A stretch of DNA of 64,000 nt from Warburgia ugandensis (taxonomy: Eukaryota; Streptophyta; Magnoliopsida; Canellales; Canellaceae), in NCBI GenBank assembly GCA_035236585.1, contig CP141127.1, positions 51,582,001-51,646,000 on the forward strand, in the 5' to 3' direction. Of this stretch, positions 1 to 54,945 are shown piece by piece. The notes under the pieces are model-generated. The model was not told where the DNA came from. It worked only from the letters and a program-made list of their open reading frames with translations, and did no database searches. The first letter of the stretch is position 1. Every line of letters starts with the position of its first letter. Made by a program: the position numbers and the translations under genes.

Positions 1-3000
1 TCAAAAGATTCAAAAAAAAGGAGTCAAAATGTAGGGACCATTTTGATGATGACACCCTCCCTCCATCTCACGTCTACCCCAAGAAAGAAGGTAGGCTATC
101 ATGCTACCCACCTCAAGTCACAGTTTGTAGCCTTGAGAAATAATGTTACTACATAAATTTTAAAGTTCTATTTGGAAGATTGGATTGAATAGGAAGATGA
201 ATGTCTTATAAATTCTAATTTTAGAAGATAGAATTTGTTGATAATATTCACATAATTACATTATATTCAAAAAAATAGAGTCCAATGTCACAAAGAACAC
301 TGAAGATGGAGTTTGGATGAAAAAGTTATGAACATTTGAATATGAAGGGTATTTTAGAAATTAAAACAAGGATTCAAATTGGATAGGGCCATTTGAATGT
401 GAAGGGAACTTTTAAAGATGAAGTGCATTTAAGTAATTAAAGGATAAAAAAAAATTGATTCAAAATGCATGGGGCCATTTTGATAACAACACCCTCCCTT
501 TGTCATTGCATCTGCACCCCATTCTGTAGGGAAAGACGATAGGCGGTAGTGATGCCCATTTGGAAGATTGGATTAAATAGGAGGATGAATGTTTTATAAA
601 GATTGAATTAAGAATTTGTTAATGGATTCCAACGGCTCAAAGAACACTGAAAACAGAGTTCGTATAAAACATTTGTGAGCATTTGATGTTGAAGGTCATT
701 TTGGTAATCGAAAGATTCAAAAAAAAAAAAAAAAGGTGTCAAAATGTGGGGAGCATTTTGATGATGACACCCTCCCTCCATCTCATGTCTCCCCCAAGAA
801 AGAAGGTAGGCTATCATGCTACCCACTTCCAGTTACAGTTTGTTACATTGAGAAATAATGTAACTACCTAAATTATAAAGTCCTATTTGGAAGATTGGAT
901 TGAACAGGAAGATGACTGTCTTATAAATTTTAATTTTAGAAGATATAATTTTTTGTTAATATTCACATAATTAGATTCTATTCAAAAAATGGAGTCCAAT
1001 GTCACAATGAACACAGAAAGTGGAGTTCGGATGAAAAAGTCATGAACATTTGAATATGAAGGGCATTTTAGAAATTAAATAAAAAATGGCTTCAAAACGC
1101 ATGGGCCCATTTGAATATGAATGGCACTTTTAAACATGAAGGGCATTTAAGTAATAAAAATATTTTTAAAAAGGATTCAAAATGCATGGGCCCATTTTGA
1201 TAACAACACCCTCCCTTTGTCTTTGCATCTACACCCCATTGCGTAGGGAAAGACGATAGGCAGTCGCGATGACCACCTCCTGTCACTGTTTCCAAGGTTG
1301 GGAAGTAATGTAACTACCCCAATTTTAAGGTCCTATTTGGAAGATGTGATTAAATATAAGAATCAATGTTTTATAAAGATTGAATTAGGAATTTGTTAAT
1401 GGAATCCGATGGCTCAAAGAACACTGAAATCAGAGTTTGTATAAAAAATTTATGAGCATTTGTAGTTGAAGGTTATTTTGGTAATCAAAAGATTCAAAAA
1501 AAAGGAGTCAAAATGTAGGGACCATTTTGATGATGACACCCTCCCTCCATCTCACGTCTACCCCAAGAAAGAAGGTAGGCTATCATGCTACCCACCTCAA
1601 GTCACAGTTTGTAGCCTTGAGAAATAATGTTACTACATAAATTTTAAAGTTCTATTTGGAAGATTGGATTGAATAGGAAGATGAATGTCTTATAAATTCT
1701 AATTTTAGAAGATAGAATTTGTTGATAATATTCACATAATTACATTATATTCAAAAAAATAAAGTCCAATGTCACAAAGAACACTGAAGATAGAGTTTGG
1801 ATGAAAAAGTTATGAACATTTGAATATGAATGGTATTTTAGAAATTAAAACAAGGATTCAAATTGGATGGGGCCATTTGAATGTGAAGGGAACTTTTAAA
1901 GATGAAGTGTATTTAAGTAATTAAAGGATAAAAAAAAATTGATTCAAAATGCATGGGGCCATTTTGATAACAACACCCTCCCTTTGTCATTGCATCTGCA
2001 CCCCATTCTGTAGGGAAAGACGATAGGCGGTAGTGATGCCCACCTCTTGTCACTATATGCAGCATTGGGAAGTAATGTCACTACCCCAATTTTAAGGTCC
2101 CATTTGGAAGATTGGATTAAATAGGAGGATGAATGTTTTATAAAGATTGAATTAAGAATTTGTTAATGGATTCCAACGGCTCAAAGAACACTGAAAACAG
2201 AGTTCGTATAAAACATTTGTGAGCATTTGATGTTGAAGGTCATTTTGGTAATCGAAAGATTCAAAAAAAAAAAAAAAGGTGTCAAAATGTGGGGAGCATT
2301 TTGATGATGACACCCTCCCTCCATCTCATGTCTCCCCCAAGAAAGAAGGTAGGCTATCATGCTACCCACTTCCAGTTACAGTTTGTTACATTGAGAAATA
2401 ATGTAACTACCTAAATTATAAAGTCCTATTTGGAAGATAGGATTGAACAGGAAGATGAATGTCGTATAAATTTTAATTTTAGAAGGTAGAATTTGTTGAT
2501 AATATACACATAATTACATTTTATTCAAAAAATGGAGTCCAATGTCACAAAGAACATTGAAAATGGAGTTTGGATGAAAAAGTTATGAACATTTGAATAT
2601 GAAGGGCATTTTAGAAATTAAAATAAGGATTCAAAATGATGGGGCCATTTGAATATGAAGGGCACCTTTAAAGATGAAGGGCATTTAAGTAATTAAAACA
2701 TTAAAAAAAAAGGAGTCGAAATGCATGCGGCCATTTTGATAACAACACCCTCCCTTTGTCTCTACATCTACACGAAATCTGCACCCCATTGCGCAGGGAA
2801 AGTTGATAGGCGATCGCGATGCCCCCCTCTTGTCACTGTTTGTAGCATTGGGAAGTAATGTAACTACCACAATTTGAAGGTCCTATTTGGAAGATTGGAT
2901 TAAATAGGAGGATGAATGTTTTATAAAGATTGAATTAAAAATTTGTTAATGGAATCTAACGGCTCAAAGAACCCTTAAAACAGCGTTCATATAAAAAATT

Positions 3001-3899
3001 TATGAGCATTTGATGTTGACGGTCATTTTGGTAATCAAAAGAATTAAAAAAAGAAAAGAAAAAAGGGGTCAAAATGTACAGAGCATTTTGATGATGACAC
3101 CCTCCCTCCATCTCCCGTCTCCCCTAAGAAAGATGGTAGGCTATCATGCTACCCACCTCCAATCACAGTTTCTTACATTGCGAAATAATGTAACTACCTA
3201 AATTATAAAGACCTATTTGGAAGATTGGATAGAACAGGATGATGAATGTCTCATAAATTCTAATTTAGAAGATAGAATTTGTTGACAATATTCACATAAT
3301 TATATTCTATTCAAAAAATGGAGTCCAATGTCACAAAGAACACTGAAAATGGAGTTCTGATGAAAAAGTTATGAACATTTGAATATGAAGGGCATTTTAG
3401 AAATTAAAATAAGGATTCAAAATGCATGGGGCCATTTGAATATGAAGGGCACTTTTAAAAATGAAGGGCATTTAAGTAATTAAAAGAGAAAAAAAAAGGA
3501 TTCAAAATGCATGCGGCCATTTTGATAACAACACCCTCCCTTTATCTCTACATCTGCGCACATTTGGACCCCATTGCGCAGGGAAAGACGATAGGCGATC
3601 CCAATGCCCACCTTTTGTCACTGTTTGCAGTGTTGGGAAGTAATGCAACTACCCCAATTTTAAGGTCCTATTTGGAAGATTGGATTAAATAGGAGGATGA
3701 ATATTTTTTAAAGAATGAATTAAGAATTTGTTAATGGTATCTAATGGCTCAAAGAACACTGAAAACGGAGTTCGTATAGAAAATTTATGAGGATTTGATG
3801 TTGAAGGTCATTTTGCTAATCAAAAGATTCAAAAAAAAAAAAAACGTTGTCAAAATGTGGGGAGCATTTTGATGATGACACCCTCCCTCCATCTCACGT
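1..3899. repeat. Satellite array, segment 1 (about 5 units of a 770-785 bp dimeric repeat)
   Basis: Tandem repeat recognised by the recurring anchor gatgatgacaccctccctcc, which starts near 45, 760, 1529, 2303, 3090 and 3871. Between these lies a second, related anchor, gataacaacaccctccct. Each unit therefore has two related halves: one has the gatgatga anchor preceded by a long A-run, the other has the gataacaa anchor. The first unit is shorter (715 bp) because about 60 bp of the second half is absent. Positions 1-900 are nearly repeated at about 1485-2440, so there is a two-unit higher-order repeat here. No protein-coding content is credible; the short frames recur only because the DNA recurs. 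The array stops at the CACGT target duplication of element E1 and resumes in phase at 21797. Confidence 0.95.
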
Positions 3900-4256
3900 T
3901 GTAATGACTCCATTTTTGTAACATTGATAACCCAAGTTAGTAATGAAAAGTTCACTTTTTGAAGATAAGGGTATTTTGGTTATTTCACTATTCACCCTGA
4001 CTGGACCCAGAAATTTGGTCCTAAGAGTGGTACCTATAGGTGCGTCTCGGAAAAAGAAATCCAACAAGACTAAAATCACTCAAAATGGAGTTAAAATGAG
4101 CAAGTTATGGCCCTTTGAAGTTCAAGGGCAAAAGTGTAATTTATATTAAAAATGGATTTAGCCTGAGAAACACAGGGTCCCTTTTTGATACGGGCACCCC
4201 TCTTGTTCAACCTCCTCGAGGGTTCTAGAACGGTGGTGTTTAGGGGTGAAACCACC
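3900..4256 (+). repeat. E1 5' LTR, first piece (U3 start)
   Basis: This piece matches the start of the E1 3' LTR at 19356-19712, with about 7% differences by hand count. It contains the U3 block around 4055-4205 that resembles the satellite. It ends at the CCACC target sequence (4252-4256) used by the nested element E2, and the LTR resumes after the second CCACC at 12999-13003. Confidence 0.93.
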
Positions 4257-6894
4257 CGTGACGACCCGGGTTTTTCCATGCATTTTTAAATGCAATATCT
4301 AATTCCTAAGGTGAGATGCATCCCTATTTTGAAAACCATTTTATAAAAACCATGCAATGCAGCGGAAAACCTTTAGTTTTAAACTCATTTTGAAAACCCC
4401 GAGTGTCATTTGCTTTCACAACAACCAAAGCAATTTTTGAAAAACTATAGAAACCATAAATGTTTTTCCCCAGGTCTTCCTAGTTACAGCACACAGCCCA
4501 ACTATAAATTAATACAAATACATGTCCAAAGGGTTGAGAGTTTACTTACAGGTATAACTGTCTCCTTTTTAATTCACTTGCTCACAGTACTAATATCTCC
4601 TGAGGCGTCGTCTATCTGTGAGTGGAACTATCCTGAAAAATGTTAAGGATAGGGTGAGTATACACTATACTCAGTAGGAGTCTATCACTACTAGTTTTGC
4701 AATGCATACTATGTTTAAAATCATGTGCTCATAAAAACATATGCATGTTTGAATAATCATCTTCAATATCGATATTAAAAACCACTGTCAAACCGGAATA
4801 CTGACGACTTAAAGAAATATCATAATCCAAGTCGAAAGTATCGTATATCATAAACATAAAGATATGCATCAGATGCTCAACTGAATCCAACTCATAGATA
4901 TCTGGTATGGTATGGTCGACCAACCTCATATCATGCCATATGTAATGCAAATAAGTCCATAAACCATAAGGTCCAACTATGCCCACGACCTCGCAGCCGT
5001 GTGGTCCCCGGGTACCTGAGGACACAGCTTCATAGCCTCCACGGGGCATATGACACATCGACCCAGTGCTGTGACACTAGTGGTAGTACCCTGTACCACT
5101 TGCAGTCGACATAGGGAGATGCTCTTTTCGGGCGTGGTACCCATCCACCTAATAGTGGTAGAGATTGGAGGCCAACCCAAACCTCTCGGCATAGCGCCCA
5201 CGAGCTTATTAACCCAAATCATAATCTGATCAAACAAGCGAAAACCTCTCTTTTTTCAAAACCTGTCCTCTTTGGGTCCCTCATAATCGCCTGGCCCTCG
5301 GAACTCCAGCGTCTTTTGGTAACCCCCATGGATATGCAATTTTTGCAAGAACTTAATGTTCACAAATCATACAATGTATGCAGTAGTTTGCAAAACATAT
5401 CTATGCATATGTATATGCAATTATTTACAAAACATGTCTATGCATAAAGCATTTATCACATGCATGCTGAATTAAGTCATGCTAAACAAGTTATATACTT
5501 AAAACATGTATTCGCAAAACAATCATAGTTCTTTTAAAAGAATTTAGTAGCGATAGAGCACCTACCTGGCTAGGTCGCGCTATTCCCTTTGTCCTCGTAC
5601 GCTCCTAAACATGGTTTGGGGAATCAAGGTTAGTTTGGCCTATCTTTTATGGGTTTTATAGTGGTTGGTCTTATTACTTAGGTATTAGGGGTCCATCCCT
5701 ATGCCTATGGGTGTCCTAAGGTCCTAATTGGGCCTTGGTATCCGCAGTTTTCCAAAGGTCTAGCGGCCACGCGCTAGAATCCTATACTAAGGGTCATGCC
5801 CACCTTTGATTGGGCCTTGATTAGGGATTTTATAGTTTGATTATGTCCGCGTCGTCAACACAGACACAACACCTTTGCAGCGCCTCAATCAGAGCTCTAG
5901 ATCTCAAGTTATAAGCTTTTTAGTGTCACATGTACATAAGGACCTTAAGAGTGAAAAGAGGAATGCTAACGCGCTGCTCGTCAGCATCATGCGTCCCTCT
6001 GTTCTTGAGAAGCAGAAAAATCCCCAATTGCTAGCACGCTGTGCGTCTATGGCATGCACCTGCAGATGCGCTGAACTTTCTGCCCAATGTTTCATTTTGC
6101 GGTGGACGCGCCCGTTTCATTCTCTTCGAACACAGTCGACGTGTCCTTTGCGGTAAGGAGCGTTTCACTCGTTCGGGGGACCGAGGCGTCCTCAGGGCAC
6201 CCTGGTTCTACCCTGTCGTACTAGTGTGGCCCAGGGAATGTCCCTGGGTCCTTGGTGACTCTCCAGGGCTCTATTTTGCATGATTTTTCATGCAAAAACT
6301 TAGGGAAAATGATCCTATGACTACTATGAAGACGGGTTTTGAGGGATCTTGGGCATACCTGGCTCGTTGTTGGGTTTTTCTCCTTGTTTCTCCTCTTGGT
6401 TGCTTCTCCAAAACGGGTTTTCCTCAAGCTTTTGGGCTACTAATGGCGCCCAAGAGCTCTATTTATAGAGCTATAAGAGGGTTCTGGAGGGGACTCTCAC
6501 TGCCCTTGAATGGTAGTGGAGAAACCTCCAGAATGGCGGTGATTTCTCCTCCAATCACCGTCGTTCTAGAACCCTCTAGGAGCTTGAAGATGAAGGGTGC
6601 CCGTATCAAAACGGGCCCCTGTGTTTTGCACGGTAAATCCGTTTTTAATAAAAATTACATTTTTGCCCCTGAACTTCAAAGGGCCATAACTTGCTCATTT
6701 TAACTCCGTTTTGGGTGATTTTGGGCTTGTTGGATTCCTTTTTCCGAGACGCACCTAATGGTACTTTTTTTAGGACCAAATTTCTGGATTCAGTCAAGGT
6801 GACTAGTGAAATGACCAAAATACCCTTATTTCCAAAAGATGAACTTTGCATTGCTAACCTGGGATTTTAATGTTACAAAATTGGAGTCATTACA
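4257..6894 (-). repeat. E2 3' LTR (type A U3)
   Basis: This LTR of about 2.64 kb reads, on the minus strand, from TGTAATGACTCC (ending at 6894) to its TCGTCAC terminus at 4257. It pairs with 10350-12998. The minus strand shows a TATA box near 6460-6467. Downstream come a GC-rich leader, the AGGTAGGTGCTCTATCGCTA block (rc near 5550-5570) and a conserved palindrome at 4656-4672. The U3 type matches E1 and E8. Confidence 0.92.
6460..6467 (-). promoter_or_regulatory. TATA box of E2 3' LTR
   Basis: The minus strand reads TATAAATA in the context CTCTATAAATAGAGCTC. The same box, at the same LTR position, occurs in E1, E5 and E8. Confidence 0.7.
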
Positions 6895-6936
6895 TTATTA
6901 CTCCCTTAAGAGAATTTCGTCCTCAAAATTTCATAA
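6895..6936 (-). other. E2 polypurine region
   Basis: On the minus strand, a GAATTT..GAGGACGAAATTC motif and a purine run lead directly to the LTR start TGTAATG. This is the plus-strand primer region of plant Ty3 elements. Every reverse-oriented element in the window shows it beside its 3' LTR. Confidence 0.8.
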
Positions 6937-9900
6937 ATTATCATCTTCCTGGTATTTATCTCTTAGATAACTTCTTGGTGAATGCATTCTCCCCCTTAGG
7001 AATCAAATCTAGGCTCATCCTCAATTTATCATTTATATTGTTCTTCCTACAAGGCCTTACCTATAAGGGCCGCTTTCGCTGCTTACTCTAATGCATACTC
7101 CCATACGTGCTAGTTTAACAATACTGGTTTCTAGCGGTAAGTCATCTATCTCAAAATCCTTAAATGCCTGTACTTTTCTCATTGTGTATAGGATAATCTC
7201 CTCGTAGGATCATGCTTCTTTATTCATGTGTAAATTACTCCATACTTCTTTGAGATCATATGATCTTATTTCTCCTTTTTTAAATATCATAGGATGATTC
7301 CTTTCATCTAGTGATCTCTTTCATCATCCACAAGTCCAAAAAGTTACCTTCTTTCCATTGTGTCTCACTTTGCTTCTTGTCTTTTATATTTGTCCCCAAG
7401 ATACTTCAATAAATGACATGGTATCATGTGCTCTATAGCCAAACCTTTGATTAACTTCGAATGACTTGATTCCTCGACCAAAATTATATTAAAAAATGAA
7501 AGCTAATTAGTAGCATCTTCCATCGAAGACCTTATCATATACTGAAAGTAAAATGTCCTAACTCTATATCCAATTTCATAATTATTGAATTCATTAAACG
7601 CTTTCCTCTATGAGGATTTTATCCCAACAAATGTCAAATGTTAATGGTCGATTCATCATCATGGGTCTCCAGAAGCCTATCTCACTATTCACATCCATTT
7701 GTCATTAGGATTTTCAATAATGTTCCCATTCATGTAAGGCAACAAGTCTCTTATTCATAACCGAGTACCCTTACTAGGTCATGGTTGAATCCTTTGTCAT
7801 CATCCTCTTTGTCCTTTCTTTGCTTGATGGTTTTCTTCGTAACCTTTCAGTACAAAAGTTCTATACTCAATCTGGTAGGGTTAGTCCTTAGAAAATTCTT
7901 TCAATTGATTTTTAGTACTTGGTATATGCTCATAACAACTAACTATTTGTCTAAAGGTAATGTAACATCAAATCTCACCTTATAGTGTGCTAGCCATCTC
8001 TCCTTTTCTCCTTCCATCCCCTATGTCAATATATTGTTCAATCTTTTACCAAGGCTTTATCGTCATCCATGCAGTCTGTATTGTCAGGAGGTATCCTCAT
8101 AAGTAGTGATTTTCTCAATTCCTCAAATTTTATTTTTCAAGTGCCTCCTTATTTTATCTTTCAAGTGCCTTCTCATACTTAGCTTATAATAGCAATAATT
8201 CTCCTTCAATAGCAATTATATCAAATTGTACTGAAGTTGTTAACTCAACAAGTTCAACAATACTCAGATAAGCATAAACATTTTCTTAGACATAGAAAGA
8301 CTTTATTTGATTACCTATTGATCTCTTCCTAGATATATCCATGTCATAAGCTCAAGGGCCTCCAAAGTGATCAATCCTTATTTGCCTTTCTTTCCAATCC
8401 AAGTCAGCAGTATTTTTTAGACTCGAAGTAATTTCTTTACCTTGTCATGGTAGCCATTAAGGTTTGAAAAATCTTTCACATTGGTTTAGATCACTTTTTT
8501 TTTTTTTTTGCTCCTATCTCAGCTGCAACTGTTCTCATCAACTGACCTCATACCCTCAATTGACTTATTTTAACAAGTACTTTCCAGGAAAACTCAAGTC
8601 TAAAGACTTATATCATCCTTTTGAGTATATAACTTCGACTACTAACTTATAGATACTAACATACTTGATTAATTAGGGTGGGATACCTTTATTTAGTCAA
8701 TAGTACTCTAAAGGTAATGACTAAATAATGGTCTTAAGATTTTTGGTCTTCCAATCTATGATAGCAAGACCTCAATTTGATCCTTAATGGTACCCTAGTT
8801 GCTAAATGGATAAGTCACTGTCCCGGCTTAATTCCTTTTTCAATATTTTATTGACAAGGTGAGATATCACCAAAAAAATTTCCTTTTTATTATATCCATT
8901 GGTGTTCCCCACAAGCTAATGGATCTGATAAGAATCTAATTGATATCAAACCATTTGTAGAAGTTTAACTTCTAGTTGGTCGCCATTCTTCTTTGAAAAT
9001 TTCTTGTCACATAATCTCCTGAAATTCGATACTCTACTCAAAGTCTTGAACCCCATATGCTTTCTCTCTATTATACTTATTTACAATAACATCATTGCCA
9101 ACTCAACTATTATTATTCCTTTGAAGTTGATTGGTTTATCTTCCCACTTGATTCAAGATAAATTCATGATCTTCTTCTTTTGAATATTCAATATTCATTG
9201 AATAGTGGTAGTTACATCCATATCCCTTTCTCTCTTTTCTTCAAAATCCTTACTTTTGTCTTCCTAGATCAATGTATCCTCATTTTTGTCTACCTAGATC
9301 AATGTCTTCATGTGCTTTGTTGCATATAATTGACACTTCATCTATTCCTTTACGTAACATATATGATAAATTGAATGCTTCTCAGAAATTCTAAACTGTC
9401 TTAAGATCATTGAAATCCTCGATTACCTATAGCCTCAATAAAATTCATACAATGTCTTAATAATGGCATTGACATTTTGGTCATGCTATACTTTTCTTAC
9501 AAGTTCGTGTTAGAACCAATCTATTATCATCCCTAGTATTATCATCAAAATCTTTTCATAACTCGGGCAAATTCATTTCCCCATCATATTCGTGTTATAT
9601 TTCTCTTAATCACATACTATGTCAATTGCACACATCTTCTAAAATTATTATTCAATAGCATTTTACTCTCCTGAATAGTATCCAAAATTGAGCTAAGTCC
9701 TTCAAGATCCTTACCTTTGTGACCTAGTTCGAGTCACAGTTATTTCCCAATATCATCTTGCATTCTCATTCCTCTTAGATTATCATTAAAATCTTCAAAG
9801 TCTGTCTTTTACATCCCCTGTCATACTTACATCATATCCTTGTACTCATATTCTGGTATTCTTTACGATGGTAAGATAGCCGTCTAGGTTCTTCAATTTT

Positions 9901-10330
9901 CTCACCTTTGATGAGATTACTTTATTGATGGTAAGATAGTCATCTAGGTTCTTCAATTTTCTATCCTTTGATGAGATTACTTTAGTGCAGGTCAGAACTA
10001 TCTACTAACAAGTTCACTAACATCCTCATTCATCATTCTCATAATATCATCCATATATGAGTTTTTATATTTGCACCACACAACAATCCTTAATCCTTAA
10101 GTTGTCTTAGACTGGATTTTGGATAAGGGTTGCACTATCCTTTGCTTAATTATTTGTTAAACCAAGCTATGTTTCACCTATTTATTTATGGTGAAATGCC
10201 TTGAGCATTAATATGGTAATCCTCAAATAGAAGGAGTCATCTCTACTACTCCTTTTTATACTACTTATTCTTGATTTTCTCTATTGTCCATGACCCTTGG
10301 ACATGCTGGACTGGCTGTAAAAGGATAAAA

Positions 10331-10347
10331 CCTGGGCTCTGATACCA
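10331..10347 (-). other. E2 primer binding site (initiator tRNA-Met type)
   Basis: The plus strand reads cctgggctctgatacca, so the minus strand is TGGTATCAGAGCCCAGG, the usual complement of the 3' end of plant initiator tRNA-Met. Two bases separate it from the LTR end at 10350. Confidence 0.88.
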
Positions 10348-10349
10348 AC

Positions 10350-12998: not shown

Positions 12999-13003
12999 CC
13001 ACC

Positions 13004-14838: not shown

Positions 14839-14840
14839 AT

Positions 14841-14856
14841 TGGTTTCAGAGCGCAG
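14841..14856 (+). other. E1 primer binding site
   Basis: TGGTTTCAGAGCGCAG lies two bases after the LTR end. It resembles the initiator tRNA-Met primer site (TGGTATCAGAGC). It fixes the element as plus-strand and marks the LTR boundary. Confidence 0.85.
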
Positions 14857-16425: not shown

Positions 16426-16429
16426 TCGA

Positions 16430-18960: not shown

Positions 18961-18969
18961 GTCCACGTT

Positions 18970-41096: not shown

Positions 41097-41428
41097 TGTA
41101 ATCCCTGAGCAACTTATGCTATTTTTAACAAAAATGAATTGGACATTCTATAGGAAATGAAAAGTTCTCTTTTTATAGATAAGGGTATTTTGGTTATTTC
41201 ACTATTCACCCTGAATGGAACTAGAAATTTGGTCCTAATAGTAGTACCTTTAGGTGCATCTTGGAAAAAGGAATCCAACAAGACCAAAATCACTCAAAAC
41301 GGAGTTAAAATGAGCAAGTTATGGCCCTTTGAAGTTCAAGTGCAGGGGAGAAACCACCACCATTTTGCAGGTTTCTCCACTGCGATTCTATGGCCGTAAG
41401 AACCCCCTTCAGAACCCTCTTTGAGCTG

Positions 41429-41436
41429 TATAAATA
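41429..41436 (+). promoter_or_regulatory. TATA box of E5
   Basis: TATAAATA in gctgtataaatagagctc, the type A box. Confidence 0.6.
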
Positions 41437-42127
41437 GAGCTCTTGGGCACCTCCAATGGAAGCCCAAAATCTTGAAAAAAACACATCATGGAGAGGCAGA
41501 CAAGAGGAGAAAACGTGGAGAAAAACCCGGTCACGAACCAGGTATGCCCAAAATCCCTCTAAACCCATCTCCCCCTTAGTCTTAAGATGAGTTCCCCAAA
41601 GTTTTTGCATGAAAAACCATGCAAAATGGGGCTCTAGGGAGCCACAAAGGACCCAGGGACGGTGCCTGGGCATACTGGTTTGACAGGGATGAACCAGGCA
41701 AGTCCGTGGACTCGCCCGCAAATGAGAAAACGGGCATAAGGCCCGGTGCGTCTGTGGACGCGCCCTGTGGGCCTTCCATGTATTCTAAATACTAAAACGC
41801 CCATAACTTGAGTTCTAGGACTCCGATTGAGGCGCCGTGAATGGCGTTGTGTCCGTATCGACAACACGAACACATCAAAATTATAAAATACCTGATCAAG
41901 GCCCTATCTAAGGTGGGCACCACCCATAAACTATGATAGTGGTGCGAGGCCACTAAACCTTTGTAAACCTGACAATACCAAGGCCCAGTTAGGACCTTAG
42001 GAGACCCATAGGCATGGGAATGAGCCCCTAATGCCTAAGTAGTGAGGAACAATAGGCTAATCTAACCTTTTTCCCTAAACCATGTTCAGGAGCGTACGAG
42101 GACAAGGGGACTAGCGTGATCAAACCA

Positions 42128-42232
42128 GGTAGGTGCTCTATCGCTACTAGACTTTTTAAAAGAACCCATGATGTTTTGATGTAGGTGCTCTATCGCTACT
42201 AGACTTTTAAAAAGAGCTATGATTGTTTTGAG
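42128..42232 (+). repeat. 52-bp tandem duplication in E5 LTR
   Basis: gtgctctatcgctactagac occurs at 42133 and again at 42185, separated by cccatgatgttttgatgtag. The same spacer and a 52-bp step occur three times on the opposite strand in E7 (56237-56392), which ties E5 and E7 to one subfamily. Confidence 0.88.
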
Positions 42233-42364
42233 AATGCATGTTTTAAGTATAAGTATATGACTTGTTTAGCATGACTTAATTTTATAAATTAATTCAGCAT
42301 GCATATGACAAATACATTATGCATAGACATGTTTTACAAACGATTGCATAAATTGCATGATTTG

Positions 42365-44639
42365 TATGATGACCCAGGTTTTCCCATGCATTTTTAAATG
42401 CAATATCTAATTCCTAAGGCAGGATGCATCCCTATTTCAAAACCATTTTATAAAAACCATGCAATGCAGCAGAAAAACTTTAGTTTTAAACTCACTTTGA
42501 AAACCCCGAGTGTCATTTGGTTTCACAACAATCAAAGTAGTTTTTGAAAAACTTCAGAAATCATAAATGTTTTTCCCCAGGTCTATCTAGTCATAGCACA
42601 TAGCCCAACTGTAAATAAATACAAATACATGTCCAAAGGGTAGAGAGTTTATTCACATGTATAGTTGTCTCCTTTGTTTATTCACTTGCTCGTAGCACTA
42701 ATATCTCCTGAGGCGACTTCTATTTGTGAGTGGAACTATCCTGAAAAATGTTAAAGATAGGGTGAGTATATACTATACTCAGTAGGAGTCTATCACTACT
42801 AGTTTTACAATGCATGCTATGTTTAAAATCATATGCTCTTTAAAACATGTGCATATTCAATCAGTCATGTTCAATATCGATTTTAAAAACCACTGTCAAA
42901 TCGAAATACTGACGACTTAAAGAAATATCATAATCCAAGTCGAAAGTATCATATATCATAAACATAATGATATGCATTAGATGCTCAACTGAATCCAACT
43001 CATGGATATCTGGTATGGTATGGTCGACCAACCTCATGTCATGCCATATGCAATGCAAGTAAATCCACGAAACCATAGGGCCCAAACTATGCCCACGAAA
43101 CCTAGGGACATAGGGTCATATGCCTCCACGGGACATATGACACTTATTCATTGTAAATCATGCAATTTATGCAATCGGTTGCAAAACATGCATGCAATGC
43201 ATAAAATCTGCTCATGCTAGTATTGCATTCAAAGTCATAACCCTACCTAGAAGCCTGACAGCCTAGAAGCCTACCAGCCTAGAAGCCTGATAGCCTAGAA
43301 GCCTGCCAGCCTAGAAGCCTTGTCAGCTCTCTCTAGCCTGCCCTCATCGGCCCACCCTCGTCAGCCCGCCCTCATCGGTCAAGGCTACACTTATCATGCA
43401 ATCTATGCATGTAGCACATGTCTTGGCAATATATGCGCAATGTATTTTTCAAAACCTGTCCTCTTTGGGTCCCTCACAACTACCTACCCAACATCTTTTG
43501 GGCACTCCAGCATCTTTTGGTAACCCTCAAGGACATGCAATTTTTCAAGAACTCAATGCTCACAAATCATGCAATATATGCAATTGTTTGCAAAGCATGT
43601 CTATGCATAATATATTTGTCATATGCATGCTAAATTAAATTATACTAAACAAGTCATATAACTTAAACTTAAAACATGCATTCAAAACAATCATGGCTCT
43701 TTTTAAAAAAAGTCTAGTAGCGATAGAGCACCTACCTCAAAGTCTCCTGGAGTCGCGTCCTTTATCACTTCAACCCGTCCCTGGGTCTCATTTATAAACT
43801 CCTAGGTATGAATGGACACAAGGAGTCCTTATCAATTTCAATCTATTTAGACATTAGATCGCTATATCTGCCTCTAGGGTCCATGGTCCTTGCCTACTTT
43901 ATTTTCAGGCTAGATCCTATGATGTGGATCTACTATTCCATGTTTAATTCTGTAAATTGTCCTCTAATCCTAACTTTATAGTCTTATTAGGTCCGCGTGT
44001 CCCAGTTCCCAGGACACCTGTACATCCTGGTTGAATCGCGACCGCCTTACGTGCATGTGCGCCCAAAAGTCATGCCAGGGACTGCGTTTTGCACGCACAC
44101 ATGCATGCTCAAGTGACGCGCTATGACATGCATCATTCCACAAACGCACCTTGTAGCAAGGCGCGTCTCAGCTCCCAGGGCACCCCGTGCATCCTGGTCG
44201 AGCTAGGACCCGTGCCCCATGTCACACGTACCCGAAGGCCCACCTGGGGCAGTGGATGCACTGTCGTATGCTCGGAACCCACCCCTTGGCAGTGGCAGTT
44301 CTCTCTGGAAAAATTGGGAGAGGAGGGTTTCTAGAGATGTCTAGAGGTGGAAGACGACAGGGGGTGCTGTTATCAAAATGGCCCCCTGCGTTTTTTGTTT
44401 TTTCATTTTTCTGTTTAAATTCTAGAACTGTCCCTGATCTTTAAACGGTTGTAACTTCTTCATACGAACTCCGTTTTTAGTGATTTTTAAGGCATTGGAT
44501 TCCATTTTTCGAGTAGAATCTAATGGTTCCAAGTTTCTTCACAAATTCCTTTGTTTACTATTTTAAATAAAGTAAAACATTTAACACAGTTCATATCTTA
44601 TAGAATGCCCAAATTAGCGTAAATTGCTCGGGCGTTACA
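42365..44639 (-). repeat. E6 3' LTR (type B U3)
   Basis: On the minus strand it starts TGTAACGCCCGAGC at 44639. It contains a 16-bp minisatellite (43246-43326), the conserved palindrome (42764-42780) and the usual LTR tail. It is shorter than the E4 and E7 LTRs, and I see no clear TATA box. Confidence 0.85.
43246..43380 (-). repeat. 16-bp minisatellite followed by 14-bp GC-rich repeats in the E6 LTR
   Basis: About five copies of cctagaagcctgacag span 43246-43326. They are followed by about three copies of ccctcatcggccca-like units (43340-43380). The 14-bp motif is shared with E3 on the other strand. The 16-bp motif is single in E3, so its expansion is specific to this copy. Confidence 0.85.
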
Positions 44640-47600
44640 TTATTACCCGCTTAAAAGAATTTCGTCCTTGAAATTCCATAAATTATCATCTTCAAGGTAT
44701 TTTGTCTCTTAGATAACTTCTTGGTGAATGCATCCTCCCCTTAGGAATCACATCTAGTCTCAATTCTCAATTTATCATTTTTATTGTTCCTTCTATAAGG
44801 CCTTACCTATAAGGGCCGCTTTCACTGCGTACTGTAATGCATACTCCCATACGTGCCAGTTTAACAATACCGGTTTCTAGCGGTAATTCATTTATCTTGA
44901 AATCCTTAGATTCCTATACTTATCTCATCATGTATAGGATAGTCTCCTCGTAAGATCATGCTTCTTTATTCATGTATAAATTATTCTACACTTCTTTGAG
45001 ATCATATTATCTTATTTCTCCTATTTTGAATATCATAGGATAATCCTTTTCATCTAGTGATCTCTTTCATCATCCACAAGTCCAAAAAAGTTACCTTCTT
45101 TCTATTGTGTCTAACTTTGCTTCTTATCTTTGATATTTGTCCCCAAGATACTTCAATAATTGACATGGTATCATGTGCCCTACATCCAAACCCTTGATTA
45201 ACTTCGAATTTCAATTGTCTGTCGTTTTCCATATGTGACTTTATTCCTCGACCAAAGTTACATTCAAAAATGAAAGCCAATTTGTAGCATCTTCCAACGA
45301 GGACCTTATCATATACTGAAAGTAAAATGTCCGAACTCTATATCCAGTTTCATAATTATTGAATTCATTAAACGCTTTTCTCCGTGAAGATTTTATCCAA
45401 ACTCATGTCAAATGTTAATGGTCGATTCATCATCATGGGTCAAATGTTCTTGTCTAGAGGCCTTATCTTACTATTCACATCAATCTGTCATTCGGATTTT
45501 CAATAATGTTCCCATTTATGCAAAGCAAAATGTCTCTTATAACCGAGTACCCTTACTAGGTCATGGTTGAATCCTTTGTCATCATCCTCTTTGTCCTTTC
45601 TTTTCTTGATGGTTTTCTTTGTAACCTTTCAGTCCAAAAGTTCTATACTCAATCTAGTAGAGTTAGTCCTCAGGAAATTCTGTCAATTGATTTTTCATAC
45701 TTGGTATATGCTCATAACAACTAACTATTTGTCTAAAGGCAACGTAACATTAAATCTTACCTTATAGTGTGCTAGCAATCTCATCTTTTCTCCTTCCATC
45801 CTCTATGTCAATATATTATGCAATATTTTATCAAGGCTTTATCGTCAACCATGTAATCTGTATTGTCAGGGGGTGTCATCATCATCATAAGTAGTGGTTT
45901 TCTCAATTCCTCAAATTTTACCTTTCAAGTGCCTCCTCATACCTAGCTTATAATAGCAGTTCTCGTTCAATAGCTACTACCTCAAGTTATGCTGAAGCTA
46001 TTAAATCATCAAATTTGAAAATCACTCAGGTAAGCATGGAACATTTTCGTAGACATATAGAAAGATTTTATTTGATTACATATTGATCTCTTTCCAGATA
46101 TATCTATGTCATAAGCTCAAGGGCCTCTAAAGTGATCGGTACTTATCTACCTTTTTTTTCAATCCAAGTCAGCAGTATTTTTCAGTCTCAAAGTAATCTT
46201 TTCACCTTGTCATGGTAGCCATTAAGGTTTGAAAAATCTTTCACATTGGTTTAGATCACTTCTTATTTTTGCTCCTATCTCAGTTGCCACTGTCCTCATC
46301 AACTGTCCTCATACCCTCAACTGACTTACTCTAACAAGTACTTTTCTTTTCAAGGCAAACTCAAGTCTAAAGACTTATAACATCCCTTTGAGTATATAAC
46401 TTCGACTACTAACTCATAGATACTAACATACTTAATTAAATATGGTGGGATACCCTGATTTTAGTCAATAGTACTCTAAAGGTAATGACTAAATAATGGT
46501 TTTAAGATATTTGCTCTTCCAATCTATGATAGTAAGACCTCAATTTGATCCTTGATGGTACCCTACTTACTAAATGGACAAGTCACTGTCCCGGCTTAAT
46601 TCCTTTTTCAATATATTTTATTTACTCATGTAGTGGCAAGGTGAGATATCACCAAATTTTCCTTTTTATTATATCCATTGGTGTTCCCCATAAGCTAATG
46701 GATCTGATAAGAATCTAATTGATATCAAACCATTTGTAGAATTTAATTTCTAGTTGGCCACCATTTCTCTTCGAAAATTTCTTGTCGAATAATCTCCTGA
46801 TATTCGATACTCTACTCAAAGTCTTAAACCCCATATGCTTTCTTTCTTTTATACTCTTTTTCAACAAGATCACCAACTCATCTATCATTATTCCTTTGAA
46901 GTTGATTGGTTTATATTCCCAGATGATTGAAGATGAAAGATTTCTATGGATCTATTCTTTCCTCAATAAAGTCATGACCTTTTTCTTTTGAATATTCAAT
47001 GTTGAATACTTATAGTTACATCCATATCTCTTTCTCTTTTCTTCAAAATCCTCGCTTTTGTCTTTCTAGGTCAATGTCTCCATATGCTTTGTTGCATATA
47101 ATCGATACTTCATCTACTCCTTTACTTAATAGATATGATAAACTGAATGCTTCTAAGAAATTCTAAACTGTCTTAAGATCATTGAAATCCTCAATTGCCT
47201 ATAGCCTCAATAAAATTCAAACAATGTCTTAATAATGGCATTGACGTTTTGATCATGCTATACTCTTCTTACAAGTTCATGTTAGGATCAATCTATTATC
47301 ATAGATCTATCATCCCAATATTATCATCAAAATCTTTTGATAACTCGGTCGAATTCATTTCCCTATCATATTCATGTTATGTTTCTCTTATTCACATAAT
47401 CTGTCACTTGTATGCAACTTCTGATTTGCTCCATAATACTCAGGTAGTTATTAGATAGCACTTCACTCTTCATAAGACTCCAATTAAGGTATCCAAAGCT
47501 AAGTCTTTCAAGATTCATACCTTTGGGATCTGGTACGAGTCATAGTCATCTTGCATTCTCATCCCTCTTAGATTATCATCAAAATTCTTCTCAACGTCTG

Positions 47601-48082
47601 TCTTTTCCATCCCCTATCATACTCATATCATATCCTTGTGATAGTGTACTTATATTCTGATATTCTTTACGATGGTAAGATAGCCATCTAGGTTTTTCAA
47701 TGTTCTCATCTTTAGTGAGCTTAATCTATTACAGGTCAGAACTATCTACTAACAAGTTCACTAACATCTTCATTCCTCATTCTCATCATAATATGATCCT
47801 TATATGAGATTTCATCTTTGCACCACTGCACAACGATCCTTATTTCCTATGATTTTGATAGGATTCAAGCAATCCAATATCTAAGTATTTGCTATACCCA
47901 TCTTCTTTTTCACCTATTTGTTCATGGTGAAATGCCTTGAGCATTAATATTGTAATCCTCAAATAGAAGTAGTCATCTCTACTACTCCTATTTATACTAC
48001 TTCTTGGTTTTCTCTATTGTCTATGACCCTTGGACATGCTAGACTGGCTATGAAAGGATAGAACTTGGGCTCTAATACCAAC
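44640..48082 (-). other. E6 non-coding interior (LARD domain) with polypurine region at 44640-44680
   Basis: About 3.44 kb, beginning next to the LTR with the reversed GAGGACGAAATTC polypurine motif and ending at the primer site. Long stretches match E2 (6895-10349). No gag or pol motif is found. Frames such as 45567-45767 are antisense to the element and are also present in E2 and E7 by homology. Confidence 0.82.
48064..48080 (-). other. E6 primer binding site
   Basis: The plus strand reads cttgggctctaatacca, the reverse complement of a TGGTATTAGAGCCCAAG primer site (initiator tRNA-Met type). Two bases separate it from the 5' LTR. Confidence 0.82.
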
Positions 48083-48815
48083 TATGATGACTCAGGTTTT
48101 TCCATGCATTTTTAAATGCAATATCTAATTCCTAAGGTGGGATGCATCCCTATTTGAAAACCATTTTATAAAAACCATGCAATGCAGCTGAAAATCTTTA
48201 GCTTTAAACTCATTTTGAAAACCGCGAGTGTCATTTGCTTTCACAACAATCAAAGTAGTTTTTGAAAAACTTCAGAAATCATAATGTTTTTCCCCAGGTC
48301 TATCCAGTCACAGCACACAGCCCAACTGTAAGTAAATACAAATACATGTCCAAAGGGTAGAGAGTTTACTCACATGTATAGTTGTCTCCTTTGTTTATTC
48401 ACTTGCTCGTAGCACTAATATCTCTTGAGGCGACTTCTATTTGTGAGTGGAACTATCCTGAAAAATGTTAAAGATAGGGTGAGTATATACTATACTCAGT
48501 AGGAGAAGTCTATCACTATTAGTTTTACAATGCATGCTATGTTTAAAATCATATGCTCTTTAAAACATGTGCATATTCAATCAATCATGTTCAATATCGA
48601 TATTAAAAACCACTGTCAAATCGGAATACTGACGACTTAAAGAAATATCATAATCCAAGTCGAAAGTATCATATATCATAAACATAATGATATGCATCAG
48701 ATGCTCAACTAAATCCAACTCATGGATATCTGGTATGGTCGACCAACCTCATGTCATGCCATATGCAATGCAAGTAAATCCTCAAAACATAGGGCCCACT
48801 ATGCCCACGACCTCA
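48083..48815 (-). repeat. E6 5' LTR, inner part only
   Basis: Starts like the 42365 copy (tatgatgac.caggttt) and carries the palindrome at 48481-48497. Recognisable LTR sequence on this strand ends about 48815, where E5 sequence of the opposite orientation begins. Confidence 0.8.
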
Positions 48816-49344
48816 GCAAATGATTTTAAACGTAGCATGCATTGTAAAACTAGTAGTGATGGACTCTTACTGATTATAGTATATACTCACCCAATCCTTA
48901 ACATTTTTTAGACACAAGTAAGCACTTAAGGACAGGATACGCCCATGACAGAAGACACCCAAATATATCATTTTTCAGGACAGCTCCATTCACGAGTAGA
49001 AGACGCCTCAAGAGATGTTAGTGCTACGAGCAAGTAAATCAAAAGAAGAGACATGTAAGTAAACACTCTACCCTTTGGACATGTATTTGTAATTAATTAC
49101 AGTTGGGCTGTGAGCTGTGACTCGATAGACCTAGGAAAACATTTATGATTTCTAAAGTTTTTCAAAAACTAATTTGGTTGTTGTGAAAGCAAATGACACT
49201 TAGGGTTTTCAAAATGAGTTTAAAACTAAAGATTTTCTGCTGCATTGCATGGTTTTCATAAAATGGTTTTCAAATAGGGATGCATCCCGCCTTAGGAATT
49301 AGATATTGCATTTAAAAATGCATGGGAAAACCCAGGTCATCACA
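48816..49344 (+). repeat. E5 LTR, terminal piece
   Basis: Plus-strand LTR tail: gattttaaacgtagcatgc, a degenerate palindrome near 48872-48890, ccttaacattttttagacac, then the conserved end aaaacccaggtcatcaca at 49344. The AAAGG duplication follows directly. Confidence 0.82.
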
Positions 49345-49349
49345 AAAGG

Positions 49350-50843
49350 AAATGACTAATTGATGGCCTTAAAATACTTGCTCTTCCACTCTTCCTCTAA
49401 GACATCATATTGATCCTTGATCACACCCGAGTTGTGAAAAAACAAATGGACTAGTCGCTGTCCTGTCTTGTTTTCTTTTTCAATAGATCTTTATGTACTC
49501 ATGTAGTGGCAAAGTTGGATATCACCAAATTTTCCTTTTTTTGGACTACAACCACTAGTGTTTCTTATATGTTAATGGAATAGTAAATATTGCCATCAAA
49601 CTACTTGTAGAATTTAATTTCTAGTTGGTCACCATTCTACTTTGAAAATTTCCAGCTGCATAATGTCCTTAAATTTGATACTCTACTAAAAGTCTTAAAT
49701 CGCATCTGCTTTGTCTCTATTATACTCTTTTACAATAAAATCACCAACTCCACTAGTATTATTCCTTCAAATTTGATTGGTTTATCTTCCCATCGGATTC
49801 AAGATGAAAGATTTGTATGTATCTCCATAAAGTCATGATCTTCTTCTTTTGAATATTCAATATTCATTGAATACTCGTAGTTACATCTCTATGTCTTTCT
49901 CTCTTTTCATCAAAATCCTCATTTTTGTCTACCTAGATCAATGTCTTTTGTTGCATATAATCGATACTACATCTACTCCGTTACTTAACAGATATGATAA
50001 ACTGAATGCTTCTCAAAAATTCTAAACTGTCTTAAGATCATTGAAATCCTCAGTTGCCTGTAGCCTAAATAAAATTCATACAATGTCTTAATAATGACAT
50101 TGACGTTTTGATCATTCTATACTTTTCTTACAAGTTCATGTTAGGATCAATCTATTATCACAGATCTATCATCCCCAATATTATCGTCAAAGTCTTTTAG
50201 TAACTCTGGCGAATACAGTTCCTTATCATATTCGTGTTCACTTCACTTTTCATAAGACTCCAATTAAGGTATCCAAAATTGAGCTAAGTCTTTCAAGATC
50301 CATACCTTTGTGATCTAGTACGAGTCACAGTTCTTTCCTAATATCATCTTGCATTCTCATCCCTCTTAGATTATCATCAAAATCTTCTCAAAGTTCATCT
50401 TTTCCATCCCCTATCATATTCATATTTTGATATTCTTTAGAAGGGTAAGATAGCCATCTAGGTTCTTCGATTTTCTCACCTACGGTGAGATTACTCTATT
50501 ACAGGTCAGAACTATTTACTAACAAGTTCACTAACATCTTCATTCATCATTCTCATCATAATCTAATTTGTATATGAGTTTCCCTGTTTGCACCACTGCA
50601 CAACAATCCTTATAGATACAATTTAAGCCATCCAATATCTAAGTATTTGCTAGACCCATCTCCTTTTTCACTTATTTGTTTATGGTGAAATGCCTTGAGC
50701 ATTAATATTGTAATACTCAAATAGAAGTAGTCATCTCTACTACTTCTATTTATACTACTTCTTCTTGATTTTCTCTATTGTCTATGACCCTTGGACATGC
50801 TGGACTGGCTGTGAAAGGATAAAACTTGGGCTCTGATACCAAC
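49350..50843 (-). other. E4 interior, part 2
   Basis: Continues the LARD interior after E5 (aaatgactaattgatggcc). It matches E2 from about 8710 to 10349 and E6 from about 46480 to 48082. It ends at the primer site. No coding motif is seen. Confidence 0.85.
50825..50841 (-). other. E4 primer binding site
   Basis: The plus strand reads cttgggctctgatacca, i.e. TGGTATCAGAGCCCAAG on the minus strand, two bases from the LTR end at 50844. Confidence 0.88.
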
Positions 50844-53572
50844 TGTGACGACCCTGGTTTTCCCATGCATTTTTAAATGCAAGATCTAATTCCTAAGGCG
50901 GGATGCAGCCCTATTTGAAAACCATTTTTATAAAAAAAAATGCAATGCAGCAGAAAATCTTTTCATTTAAACTCATTTTGAAAACCCCGAGTGTCATTTG
51001 CTTTCACAACAATCAAAGTAGTTTTTGAAAAACTTCAGAAATCATAAATGTTTTCCCAGGTCTATCCAGTCAGAGCTCACAACCCAAGTGTAAATAAATA
51101 CAAATACATGTCCAAAGGGTAGAGTGTTTACTTACATGTATAATTGTCTCCTTTTGATTTACTTGCTTGTAGCACTAACATTTCATGAGGCGTCTTCTAC
51201 TCGTGAATGGAGCTGTCCTAAAAAATGATATATATTTGGGTGAGTATATACTATACTCAGTAGGAGTCTATCACTACTAGTTTTACAATGCAAGATATGT
51301 TTAAAATCATATGCTCTTTAAAACATGTGCATGTTTGAACACTCATGTTCAATATCGATATTAAAAACCATTGTCGAATTGGAATATTGACGACTTAAAG
51401 AATTGCATAATCCAAGTTGAAAGTATCATATATATCATAAACATAATGATATGCATAAGATGTTCAACTGAATCCAACTCATGGATATGTGGTATGGTCG
51501 ACCATCCTCATGTCATGCCATATGCAATGCAAGTAAATCATCAAAAACATAGGGCCCACTATTCCCACGACCTCCTTGCCGTGTGGTCCCCGGGCACCTG
51601 GGGACACAGGGTCATAGCCTCCAAAGGGCATATGACACTTCGACCTAGTGTCGTGACACCAGTGGTAGCCCCTGTACCACATGCAGTCGAAGCAGGGACA
51701 TGCCTTTTTGGCGTGGTACCCTTTCCACCTAATAGTGGTAGAGGTTGGGAGGCCACCCCGAACCTCTCGGCATAGCGCCCAGGAGCTTACTAGCCCAAAT
51801 CATATACGATCAATCAAGCAAAATCCTCTTTTTCAAAACCTGTCCTCTTTGGGTCCCTCACAATTTCCTGGCCCTCACAATTGCCTACTCAGCATCTTAT
51901 GGGCACTCCAGCGTCTTTTGGTAACCCTCAAGGACATGCAATTTTCCAAGACTCAATAATCACAAATCAAGCAATTTATGCAATCGTTTACAAAACATGT
52001 CTATGCATAATATATTTATCATATGCATGTTGAATTCATTTATGAGCTTACTTCATGCTAAACAAGTCATGTAACTTAAAACTTAAAACATGCAATCTCA
52101 AAGCAATCATGGGTTCTTTCTAAAAGTCTAGTAGCGATAGAGCACCTACCTCGAAGTTTCCTGGAGTCGCGTCCTTCATTACTCAACCCGTCCTTCATTA
52201 CTCAACCCAACCCTGGTCTCATTTATAAAATCCTAGATATGAATGGATAGCAAGGAGTCCTTACCAATTTCGATCTATTTAGAGATTAGATCGTTAGGTC
52301 TGCCTTTCAGGGTTCATGGGTCCTTGCCTAATTTAGTGTCAGGCTAGATCCTATGATATGGATCTACTATTCAATGGTTAGACTCTATAAATTGTCTTAT
52401 GATCCTAATTTTATAGTCTCATTAGGTCCGCGCGTCATGGTTTCCAAGACGTGTGCATGCCCTGGTCGAACTAGGACCCATGCCTGCATATCGTGTGTGC
52501 CCAACGGTCGTGCCAGGGACCTCGTTCGCACGTGCACATGCATGCCCAAGCAATCTGCTATGACGGGCATCCTAGATGGCATCGCGCGGACGCATCTTTG
52601 GCATAGCATGACACGTCTCAGCTCCCAGGGCACCCCGTGCATCCCGGTCGAGCCAGGACCCATGCCCCACATTGCGTGCGCACCCGAAGGTCGCACCAGG
52701 GACTGTGTATGCACTGTCGCACGCCTAGAACCCATCCCAGGGACCCTATCCCAGGCGCACGTGAAGCGTGGCGTCCCTGGGACGCCTTGTTCGCACAGAG
52801 CTGGATGGAACCGGCTAGGACGTTCTTTGGCTAGGAAAATCAGCTGGGAAAAACTAGATCCGGCAAGGATCTGGCCTGGGGGAAAGAAAAATGGAGAGAG
52901 GGAAAGACGGGCTTACTTGCGTAGCCTAGGGAGCACCTATCGTTCGTGGTAGACCCCCTTTCCGGTTCTGAAACTCCATGTCACCGAAAAACTCAACAAA
53001 GGAGAAAAACCCAATTTTTTGGTGATTCCATGGAAGAAATGGGGAAGAGAAAGAAGGGAAATGGCTAGCCTGAAGAACTTGGCCGTTGCCGAAAATCACA
53101 GGGAAGTTGGAGATGGGTTTCCAATTTTTTGCCGGAAACCCCAGCCCCAAATGGCCGAAAAAATTGTGATTTGAAGAGGGAATAGGGGCTTTTTATAGCC
53201 TTGCTATGGAGGTAGCAGAAACCTCTGGAAACTAGGGTTTCTGGAGAAATCTAGAGGAAGAAGAAGACAGGGTGTCGTTATCAAAATGGCCCCCTGCGTT
53301 TTTTGTCTTTTTCATTTTTAATTTAAACTACAGAAATGCCCCTAATAAGTAAACGACTATAACTTCTTCATACCAACTCCATTTTTTACATTCCTTGAGG
53401 CATTGGATTCAATTTCTCAAGTAGAATCTAATGGTACCAAGTTTTCTTATAAATTCCCTCATTTAATATTTTTAATAAAGTAAAACATTTAACATGGTTC
53501 ATTTCCCATAGAATGTCCAATTCATTTGTGTTAATTGGATGAAAAATAGCGTAAATTGCTCGGGTCACTGCA
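50844..53572 (-). repeat. E4 5' LTR (type B U3)
   Basis: Direct partner of 36347-39059, 2729 bp. The conserved palindrome is at 51242-51258. The TATA box is at 53190-53197 on the minus strand. The outer end abuts the TCGGA duplication and satellite sequence. Confidence 0.92.
53190..53197 (-). promoter_or_regulatory. TATA box of E4 5' LTR
   Basis: TATAAAAA on the minus strand in ggctataaaaagccc. This copy would drive E4 RNA. Confidence 0.65.
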
Positions 53573-54945
53573 TCGGATGAAAAAGTTATGAAAATTTGAA
53601 TATGAAGGCATTTTAGAAATTAAAATAAGGATTCAAAATGCATGGGGCCATTTGAATATGAAGGGCACTTTTAAAGTTGAAGGGCATTGAAGTAATTAAA
53701 AGATTAAAAAAAAAGGATTCAAAATGCATGCGGCCATTTTGATAACAACACCCTCCCTTTGCCTCTGCATCTGCACCACATCTGCACCCCATTGCGCAAG
53801 GAAAGACAATAGCCGGTCGCGATGCCCACCTCTTATCACTGTTTGCAGCATTCAGAAGTAATGTAACTACCCCAATTTTAAGGTCCTATTTGGAAGATTG
53901 GATTAAATGGGAGCATGAATGTTTTATAAATATTGAATTAAGAATTTGTTAATGGAATCTAACGGCTCAAAGAACACTAAAAACAGAATTCGTATAAAAA
54001 AATTTATGAGCATTTGATGTTGAAGGCCATTTTGGTAATCAAAAGATTCAAAAAAAAAAAAAACAGGAGCCAAAATGTAGGGAGCATTTTGATGATGACA
54101 CCCTCCCTCCATCTCATGTCTCCCCCAAGAAAGATGGTAGGCTATCGTGCTACCCACCTCCAGTCACAGTTTGTTACGTTGAGAAATAATGTAACTACCT
54201 AAATTATAAAGCCCTATTTGGAAGATTGGATTGAACAGGAAGATGAATGTCTTATAAATTTTAATTTAAGAAGATATAATTTGTTGATAATATTCACATA
54301 ATTTCATTCTTTTCAAAAAATGAAGTCCAATGTCACAAAGAACACTGAAAATGTAGTTCGGATGAAAAAGTTATGCACATTTGAATAACAAGGGCATTTT
54401 AGAAATTAAAATAAGGATTCAAAATGCAAGGGGCCATTTGAATATGAAGGGCACTTTTAAAAATGAAGGGCATTTAAGTAATTAAAAGAATTTTTAAAAA
54501 AAGGATTCAAAAAGGGTTGGGCCATTTTGATAACAACACCCTCCCTTTTGTCAGTGCATCTGCACCACATATGCACCCCATTGCGCAGGGAAAGATGATA
54601 GGCGGTCGCGATGCCCACCTTTTGTCACTGTTTGCAGCGTTGGGAAGTAATGTAACTTCCCCAATTTTAAGGTCCTATTTGGAAGATTGTATTAAATAGG
54701 AGGATGAATGTTTTATATAGATTGAATTAAGAATTTGGTCATGGAATCCAATGGCTCAAAGAACACTGAAAATGGAGTTCGTATAAAAATTTTATGAGCA
54801 TTTGATGTTGAAGGTCATTTTGGTAATCTAAAGATTCAAAAAAAAAAAAAAAGGTGTCAAAATGTAGGCAGCATTTTGATGATGACACCCTCCCTCCATC
54901 TCATGTGTCCCCCAAGAAAGAAGGTAGGCTATCATGCTACCCACC
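53573..54945. repeat. Satellite array, segment 4 (just under 2 units)
   Basis: Resumes in phase after E4 (tcggatgaaaaagttatg), with anchors near 54111 and 54878. The step from 36075 to 54111, corrected for E4 and one target copy, is about 805 bp. The array therefore continued uninterrupted before E4 inserted. It ends at the start of E7. Confidence 0.95.

Follow-up and report, generated by a model that had tools for sequence, protein, structure and literature searches.

A dimeric satellite of Warburgia ugandensis shares ancestry with the U3 region of Ty3/gypsy long terminal repeats and probably derives from it

Satellite DNAs derived from the long terminal repeats (LTRs) or untranslated regions (UTRs) of retroelements are described, in the passages cited here, from maize, potato, Lathyrus, pea and rodents (PMC3648361, PMC7004042, PMC9659126). 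The route from LTR to satellite is thus already established elsewhere, and the satellite reported below adds a case. It lies in a window of 64,000 bases of Warburgia ugandensis (contig CP141127.1, positions 51,582,001 to 51,646,000, forward strand), which is AT-rich and contains no N, and it forms a single array of a 782-bp dimer, composed of half-units A (324 bp) and B (458 bp), that is broken up by LTR retroelements. A sequence-only reading of this DNA had claimed that the satellite shares ancestry with the U3 part of the surrounding LTRs, either by tandem amplification of a promoter-side LTR segment or by capture of satellite in an LTR, and had remarked that LTR-derived satellites are known in plants, as the published maize and potato cases confirm. 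We consider it quite probable that the satellite descends from the front end of an LTR, comprising the LTR start and most of U3, of a Ty3/gypsy element, itself probably Tekay/Del-like, and was later amplified.

CRM1TR and CRM4TR of maize are tandem arrays from LTR retroelement ends with retroelements inserted between the repeats, features in which the Warburgia array resembles them, and CRM1TR likewise shows variant ends and duplications inside the repeat; in the cited sections, Sharma et al. 2013 (PMC3648361) proposed that both arose through illegitimate recombination and gene conversion. Those maize repeats join part of an LTR to a UTR, however, whereas the satellite here uses the U3 side of the LTR. 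CRM4TR is also 95-98% like its parent, while here the parent would be old and the tail of each half-unit is without a match found in an element; the stricter maize type, in which the whole unit comes from one parental retrotransposon, does not describe a satellite whose tails lack an LTR match. Closest in anatomy to half-unit A is RPCS of Ctenomys, with a 348-bp, U3-like unit bearing a polypurine tract (PPT), but RPCS stems from a rodent retroviral LTR and is reported, in the parts cited, to carry TATA and CCAAT boxes (PMC3648361, PMC9659126), whereas the elements here are Ty3/gypsy and no TATA-like box was seen by eye in the tail. Like the Warburgia repeat, Sobo of Solanum bulbocastanum is a plant satellite similar to a gypsy LTR, but its unit is composite and 4.7 kb long, and the title cited for it speaks of recent amplification (PMC3648361, PMC9659126). 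The Ogre-derived satellites of Lathyrus and pea were also born from Ty3/gypsy elements, but, as far as the cited text goes (Vondrak et al. 2019, PMC7004042), they grew out of short tandem repeats that the element's 3'UTR already contained, whereas here the LTR would be the source and each LTR carries the segment once.

Self-BLAST and a unit map placed the satellite, among the self-matches listed, in four stretches of the window, all on the + strand: 1-3899, 21796-24173, 26946-36346 and 53573-54945. The sequences between them are bounded by TG...CA LTR ends and flanked by exact 5-bp target-site duplications (TSDs) of satellite sequence: element I (3900-21795, +; TSD CACGT, ending the first stretch and starting the second), solo LTR II (24174-26945, +; TSD GTTAC, ending the second and starting the third) and element III (36347-53572, -; TSD TCGGA, ending the third and starting the fourth). 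The half-units spanning the three insertion sites measure 326, 323 and 457 bp once one TSD copy is dropped, which is their normal length, so the array predates these three insertions.

Half-units were delimited by cutting at the word AATAATGTAACTACC with up to 2 mismatches. Of the 42 intervals obtained, 20 belong to type A (consensus 324 bp) and 21 to type B (consensus 458 bp); the remaining one, of 715 bp, probably holds two half-units whose boundary escaped the cut. Neither this interval nor the truncated units at the two ends were counted. The unit is repeated head to tail and homogenised, with a mean pairwise identity of 0.903 within A (n=20) and 0.908 within B (n=21); the two consensuses are 81% identical across the U3-like core. 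A typical A (27414-27736, 323 bp, +) has its U3-like segment at 27508-27656, and the B that follows it (27737-28193, 457 bp, +) has one at 27873-27996 and a duplicated second half of it at 28006-28091. Three A units, 271-272 bp long, carry a deletion of ~52 bp; they lie in successive dimers at 33663-35391 and form a single branch in the tree described below (support 100/97). These three units represent a local amplification.

The word series that the sequence-only reading had traced through three LTR segments is present in the order and orientation it gave, at 4053-4200 (+), 24317-24472 (+) and 38902-38755 (-); these profile positions fall within the ranges it had marked or at most 2 bases off. 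Shuffled controls, which it had named as a check, gave the same answer. When the two half-unit consensuses were aligned with the first 450 bp of ten LTRs, with 200 dinucleotide shuffles each, 18 of the 20 comparisons scored above every shuffle, and the best z values, 20 for A and 31 for B, were both against the LTR starting at 39059. The two that did not were A against the LTR at 12998 (27, shuffle maximum 31) and B against that at 62175 (32, maximum 32). The aligned stretches lie within satellite positions 95-263 and LTR positions 114-308, and the scores of reverse complements, 17-29, were like those of shuffled sequence. With the satellite masked, BLAST matched B to 38919-38808 (E 6.8e-22) and A to 38901-38795 (E 6.6e-14).

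A profile built solely from the ten LTR U3 segments, with satellite units kept out of the building, matched all 20 A and all 21 B half-units cut from the array at E<1e-3, on the + strand only, with E-values reaching 1.2e-19. Counted from the start of the unit, the match begins at 95-97 for A and at 133-141 for B, and a second match in 21 of 21 B units corresponds to the duplicated second half of the core. On the opposite strand of the half-units there was no match at E<=10, and in the reversed window none at E<=1; in the real window, chance-level matches at 20216-20167 (E 0.76) and 41837-41788 (E 0.28) mark the onset of noise. Where three LTR copies of the U3 segment had been pointed out earlier, the window has ten complete ones and a partial one. 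The match is confined to the U3 side of the LTR, and each of the ten LTRs carries the segment once. The unit is therefore homologous, beyond chance, to a defined part of the LTR, and the core is collinear. On the strength of the shuffles, the reversed-sequence control, strand, register and position, the shared ancestry of satellite and LTR U3 is clear, as had been claimed.

Both half-units also begin, in collinear register, with sequence resembling the element's PPT/LTR junction. A fainter likeness had been noticed before, between satellite AATGTAACTACCCCAATTTT and the LTR start TGTAATGACTCCAATTTT, and it gains support from the placement of PPT-bearing LTR starts: for 6 of 6 such starts, the A start and the B start outscore all other places on the same strand of the 782-bp dimer. 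The summed score of this placement is 144; 1000 shuffles reached no more than 129, and 42 other offsets of the same elements no more than 124. Consensus A reads TGTAACTACCC, which is TGTAACACCC plus one inserted base; in the cited part of PMC4029996, TGTAACACCC is the commonest U3 attachment (att) sequence of maize and sorghum Del elements.

Of the two directions first proposed, amplification of an LTR promoter-side segment is the one favoured by the LTR-like start and the A/B indels, and capture of satellite by the LTR is less so. We infer this direction from features that argue for it short of proof. It is an element's own replication that defines where its LTRs end, and a half-unit that starts like an LTR terminus would for that reason point from LTR to satellite. 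The indels point the same way: a stretch upstream of the core is common to B and the LTRs and missing in A, while the duplication in B is missing in A and in the LTRs, from which it follows that A and B go back to a common ancestor arranged like the LTR. The presence of the core in both LTR families of the window also favours this direction.

The joining mechanism and the lineage of the parent element are inferred, and the steps would be as follows. A piece from the PPT/LTR junction to just past a CACCC block, with about 80-100 bp of other DNA, would have become tandem, illegitimate recombination making the first tandem copy with its tail. Two diverging copies, A and B, may then have been amplified jointly as the 782-bp dimer; about 33-40 bp before the core went missing from A, and in B about 88 bp of the core became duplicated. 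The dimer could have been extended and homogenised, to about 90% within type, by unequal crossing-over or gene conversion. Related elements, not the parents, later inserted into the finished array.

Several results weigh against this descent. The LTR-terminus match is short and individually weak: over 12 local alignments, 0-312 of 500 shuffles scored as high, and the sole LTR-head comparison with 0 of 500 is an out-of-register match. A reverse-strand place beats the A and/or B start for two of the six LTR starts, namely element I (24, against 21 and 20) and the LTR at 62175 (21, against 31 and 20). An att match within one edit occurs somewhere, on either strand, in 95 of 2000 shuffled dimers. 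For the tail from CACCC to the next start, 81 bp in A and 103 bp in B, the window offers no LTR match, and no TATA-like box was seen in this tail by eye. The tree does not significantly nest the satellite within one LTR family, and the core shared with the satellite is also the U3 part best conserved between the two LTR families, in the one pair compared; both points are taken up below. Among the other head comparisons, up_of_A against the LTR at 6894 was equalled by 5 of 500 shuffles, and a permutation of head columns (A 1/5000 as high, B 0/5000) was set aside, the alignment having been optimised. An LTR origin of the tail was sought and rejected: in 18 comparisons the best two had 22 of 300 shuffles as high and their place was inconsistent, and satellite-masked BLAST of the tails against the window gave words of 12-15 bp only, at E 0.22 or worse. 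A TATA-box remnant in the tail was dropped, as the tail-LTR comparisons gave no signal.

The ten LTRs fall into two families. Family 1 comprises element I, an element nested in it and the LTR starting at 62175; family 2 comprises II, III, element IV at the end of the fourth satellite stretch and the LTR starting at 44639. Of the three segments pointed out earlier, the first belongs to family 1 and the other two to family 2. Over the 147-column core, the satellite consensus is 59-80% identical to the LTRs, 68-80% to family 2 and 59-65% to family 1, and the two families are 62-75% identical to each other. A tree of 10 LTR and 41 satellite cores (155 columns, sequences from the window only, no outside root) gave the satellite cores as a single clade (100/99) and family 1 as another (100/100); no sampled LTR lies inside the diversity of the array, because the 41 satellite cores form a clade without the LTRs. 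Rooted on family 1, which is a choice, the satellites join LTR IV (85/90) inside family 2. This nested placement first looked supported, family 2 forming one clade in 2% of bootstrap trees and in 6% without LTR IV, but that share rose to 56% with the LTR head included, and the approximately unbiased (AU) test did not reject a family 2 held together in any of the three settings (p 0.354; 0.478 with the LTR head; 0.361 without LTR IV). As the AU test failed throughout and support fell with the LTR head, we do not claim nesting within family 2.

One LTR per family (4258-6894 for family 1, 36347-39059 for family 2) was aligned end to end, and identity was 64-71% at about LTR 100-300, 32-51% elsewhere to about 1450 and 75-91% beyond. 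The pattern looks as if LTR halves had been exchanged, the 3' half being alike and most of the 5' half divergent. At about LTR 390-430 stands what we take, by eye, to be a TATA-like box. The satellite keeps the U3 island upstream of this box.

The alternative that the LTR captured satellite, an ancestral element having taken up a satellite unit in its U3 and spread it with the LTR families, fits the three-group tree without an outside root, and elements do insert into this array; the core, as the best-aligned stretch in the first 1.45 kb between one LTR per family, also resembles an exchanged module. We regard it as unlikely, for it requires a satellite that already started like an LTR terminus at the right distance, the A deletion and the B duplication are both missing from the ten LTR copies, and the 41 satellite cores exclude those LTRs from their clade. 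A different account would have both carry a widespread U3 regulatory module, kept alike by constraint, with another LTR family seeding the satellite or recombination spreading the module. Such a module agrees with the island of conservation just described, and with a satellite head that is partly family 1-like (up_of_A against the LTR at 6894) on a core nearer family 2; because that core is the best conserved U3 part between the families, selection could mimic direct descent in the case of a third-party origin. It would still be an LTR origin, however, and the identity of the satellite to family 2 is about equal to or above that between the families, so that we think this account highly improbable. 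Chance likeness between AT-rich repeats with short words in common, to which the composition of the window and the 2 of 20 comparisons that failed to beat all shuffles might be thought to point, has virtually no probability left and is refuted by the shuffle test, the LTR-only profile and the search of cut-out units, in which 41 of 41 matched on one strand and in one register.

Descent from an LTR remains the reading we prefer. The inserted elements may be Tekay/Del chromoviruses. Their LTRs start TGTAATGAC or variants and measure, by coordinates, 2440 bp (3' LTR of I), 2637 and 2649 bp (nested element), 2772 bp (II) and 2713 and 2729 bp (III). Tekay/Del chromoviruses have LTRs of 1.1-4.4 kb in the cited part of PMC4029996, a range into which these fall, and the inserted elements share a U3 att like TGTAACACCC. 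Element I encodes, at 15097-19304 (+), pieces of a zinc knuckle and protease, of reverse transcriptase (RT)-RNase H and of integrase, in the usual Ty3/gypsy order and broken by stops. Its integrase pieces are the zinc-binding and C-terminal ones, the stretch between them (18399-18767) having no Pfam match, and a Chromo match of 24.0 bits is below the Pfam cut-off of 25.1. Such pol pieces were found in element I only, with no further tblastn match to them in the window at E<=1e-3, and the other elements in the window therefore look non-autonomous. Rfam and tRNA scans of the window gave no matches.

The 5' LTR of element I has its U3 segment at 4053-4200 (+; E 3.2e-40 with the LTR-only profile, of which it is itself a member) and is split by the nested element (4257-12998, -), which has LTRs at about 4258-6894 and 10350-12998, is flanked by CCACC and has C as its outermost base (4257), where T is expected. 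The 3' LTR of element I carries another profile member at 19508-19656 (+), and the LTR-only profile placed the U3 segments of the nested element at 6742-6594 and 12846-12697 (-) and that of solo LTR II at 24317-24472 (+). In element III, which has LTRs at 36347-39059 and about 50844-53572 and more repeats nested inside, they lie at 38902-38755 and 53414-53270 (-), and that of the nested family 2 LTR lies at 44361-44506 (-). The partial copy, at 41267-41345 (+), found by self-comparison and the profile, belongs to a truncated family 1 LTR; family 1 LTR fragments with an internal deletion occupy 41156-41698 (+) within element III. The 3' LTR of element IV (54946-57794, -; U3 segment 57647-57516) directly adjoins the end of the fourth satellite stretch, and the far end of this element was not found within the window. 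The family 1 LTR starting at 62175 has its U3 segment at 61875-62022 (-). Divergence between paired LTRs (Kimura two-parameter) is 0.077 and 0.062 for the two pieces of element I, 0.079 for the element nested in it and 0.100 for element III. The window also contains a minisatellite at 43246-43320 (16-bp unit, 4.7 copies) and short arrays at 25705-25816 (38 bp) and 56236-56391 (52 bp).

Searches outside the window gave little. The satellite is named in no title among the matches listed from open-licence literature, and a text search for six U3 words matched 11 papers, of which none is plant-related by title. The collection viral_contigs had 0 matches to a U3 word and a satellite word, and the RT protein gave 4 pattern matches in public collections, with no confirmed relative among them. 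Two contigs of a single gammaproteobacterial metagenome-assembled genome (L001:329-350 and L002:119-140) contain an exact copy of a 22-base word of the satellite, within surrounding sequence common to both. We took these contigs as chance rather than as relatives of the satellite; they were compared in part, and only the word and a few adjacent bases match.

Array and LTRs also share words of small-RNA length. A 25-base exact word is common to the array and the LTR starting at 39059, and in four of the ten LTRs (39059, 44639, 53572 and 57794) 6-19 of 330 21-mers find a counterpart in the array when up to 1 mismatch is allowed; in family 1 LTRs the longest exact words shared with the array are 11-15 bases. 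Small-RNA cross-talk between array and LTRs is possible, to judge from these shared words. A bolder conjecture holds that constraint preserves the U3 core of the satellite as a regulatory island and that the array continuously supplies small RNAs by which related LTR promoters are silenced in trans; it strikes us as decidedly unlikely. What the locus offers is a satellite for which the LTR stretch that would be its source can be delimited in bases, running from the LTR start to about position 305 and lying upstream of the TATA-like box. Its history as a dimer can be read from indels, and relatives of the source later inserted into it. The case suggests that satellites can be seeded by a conserved U3 island, and that small-RNA targets may be common to the satellite and the elements.

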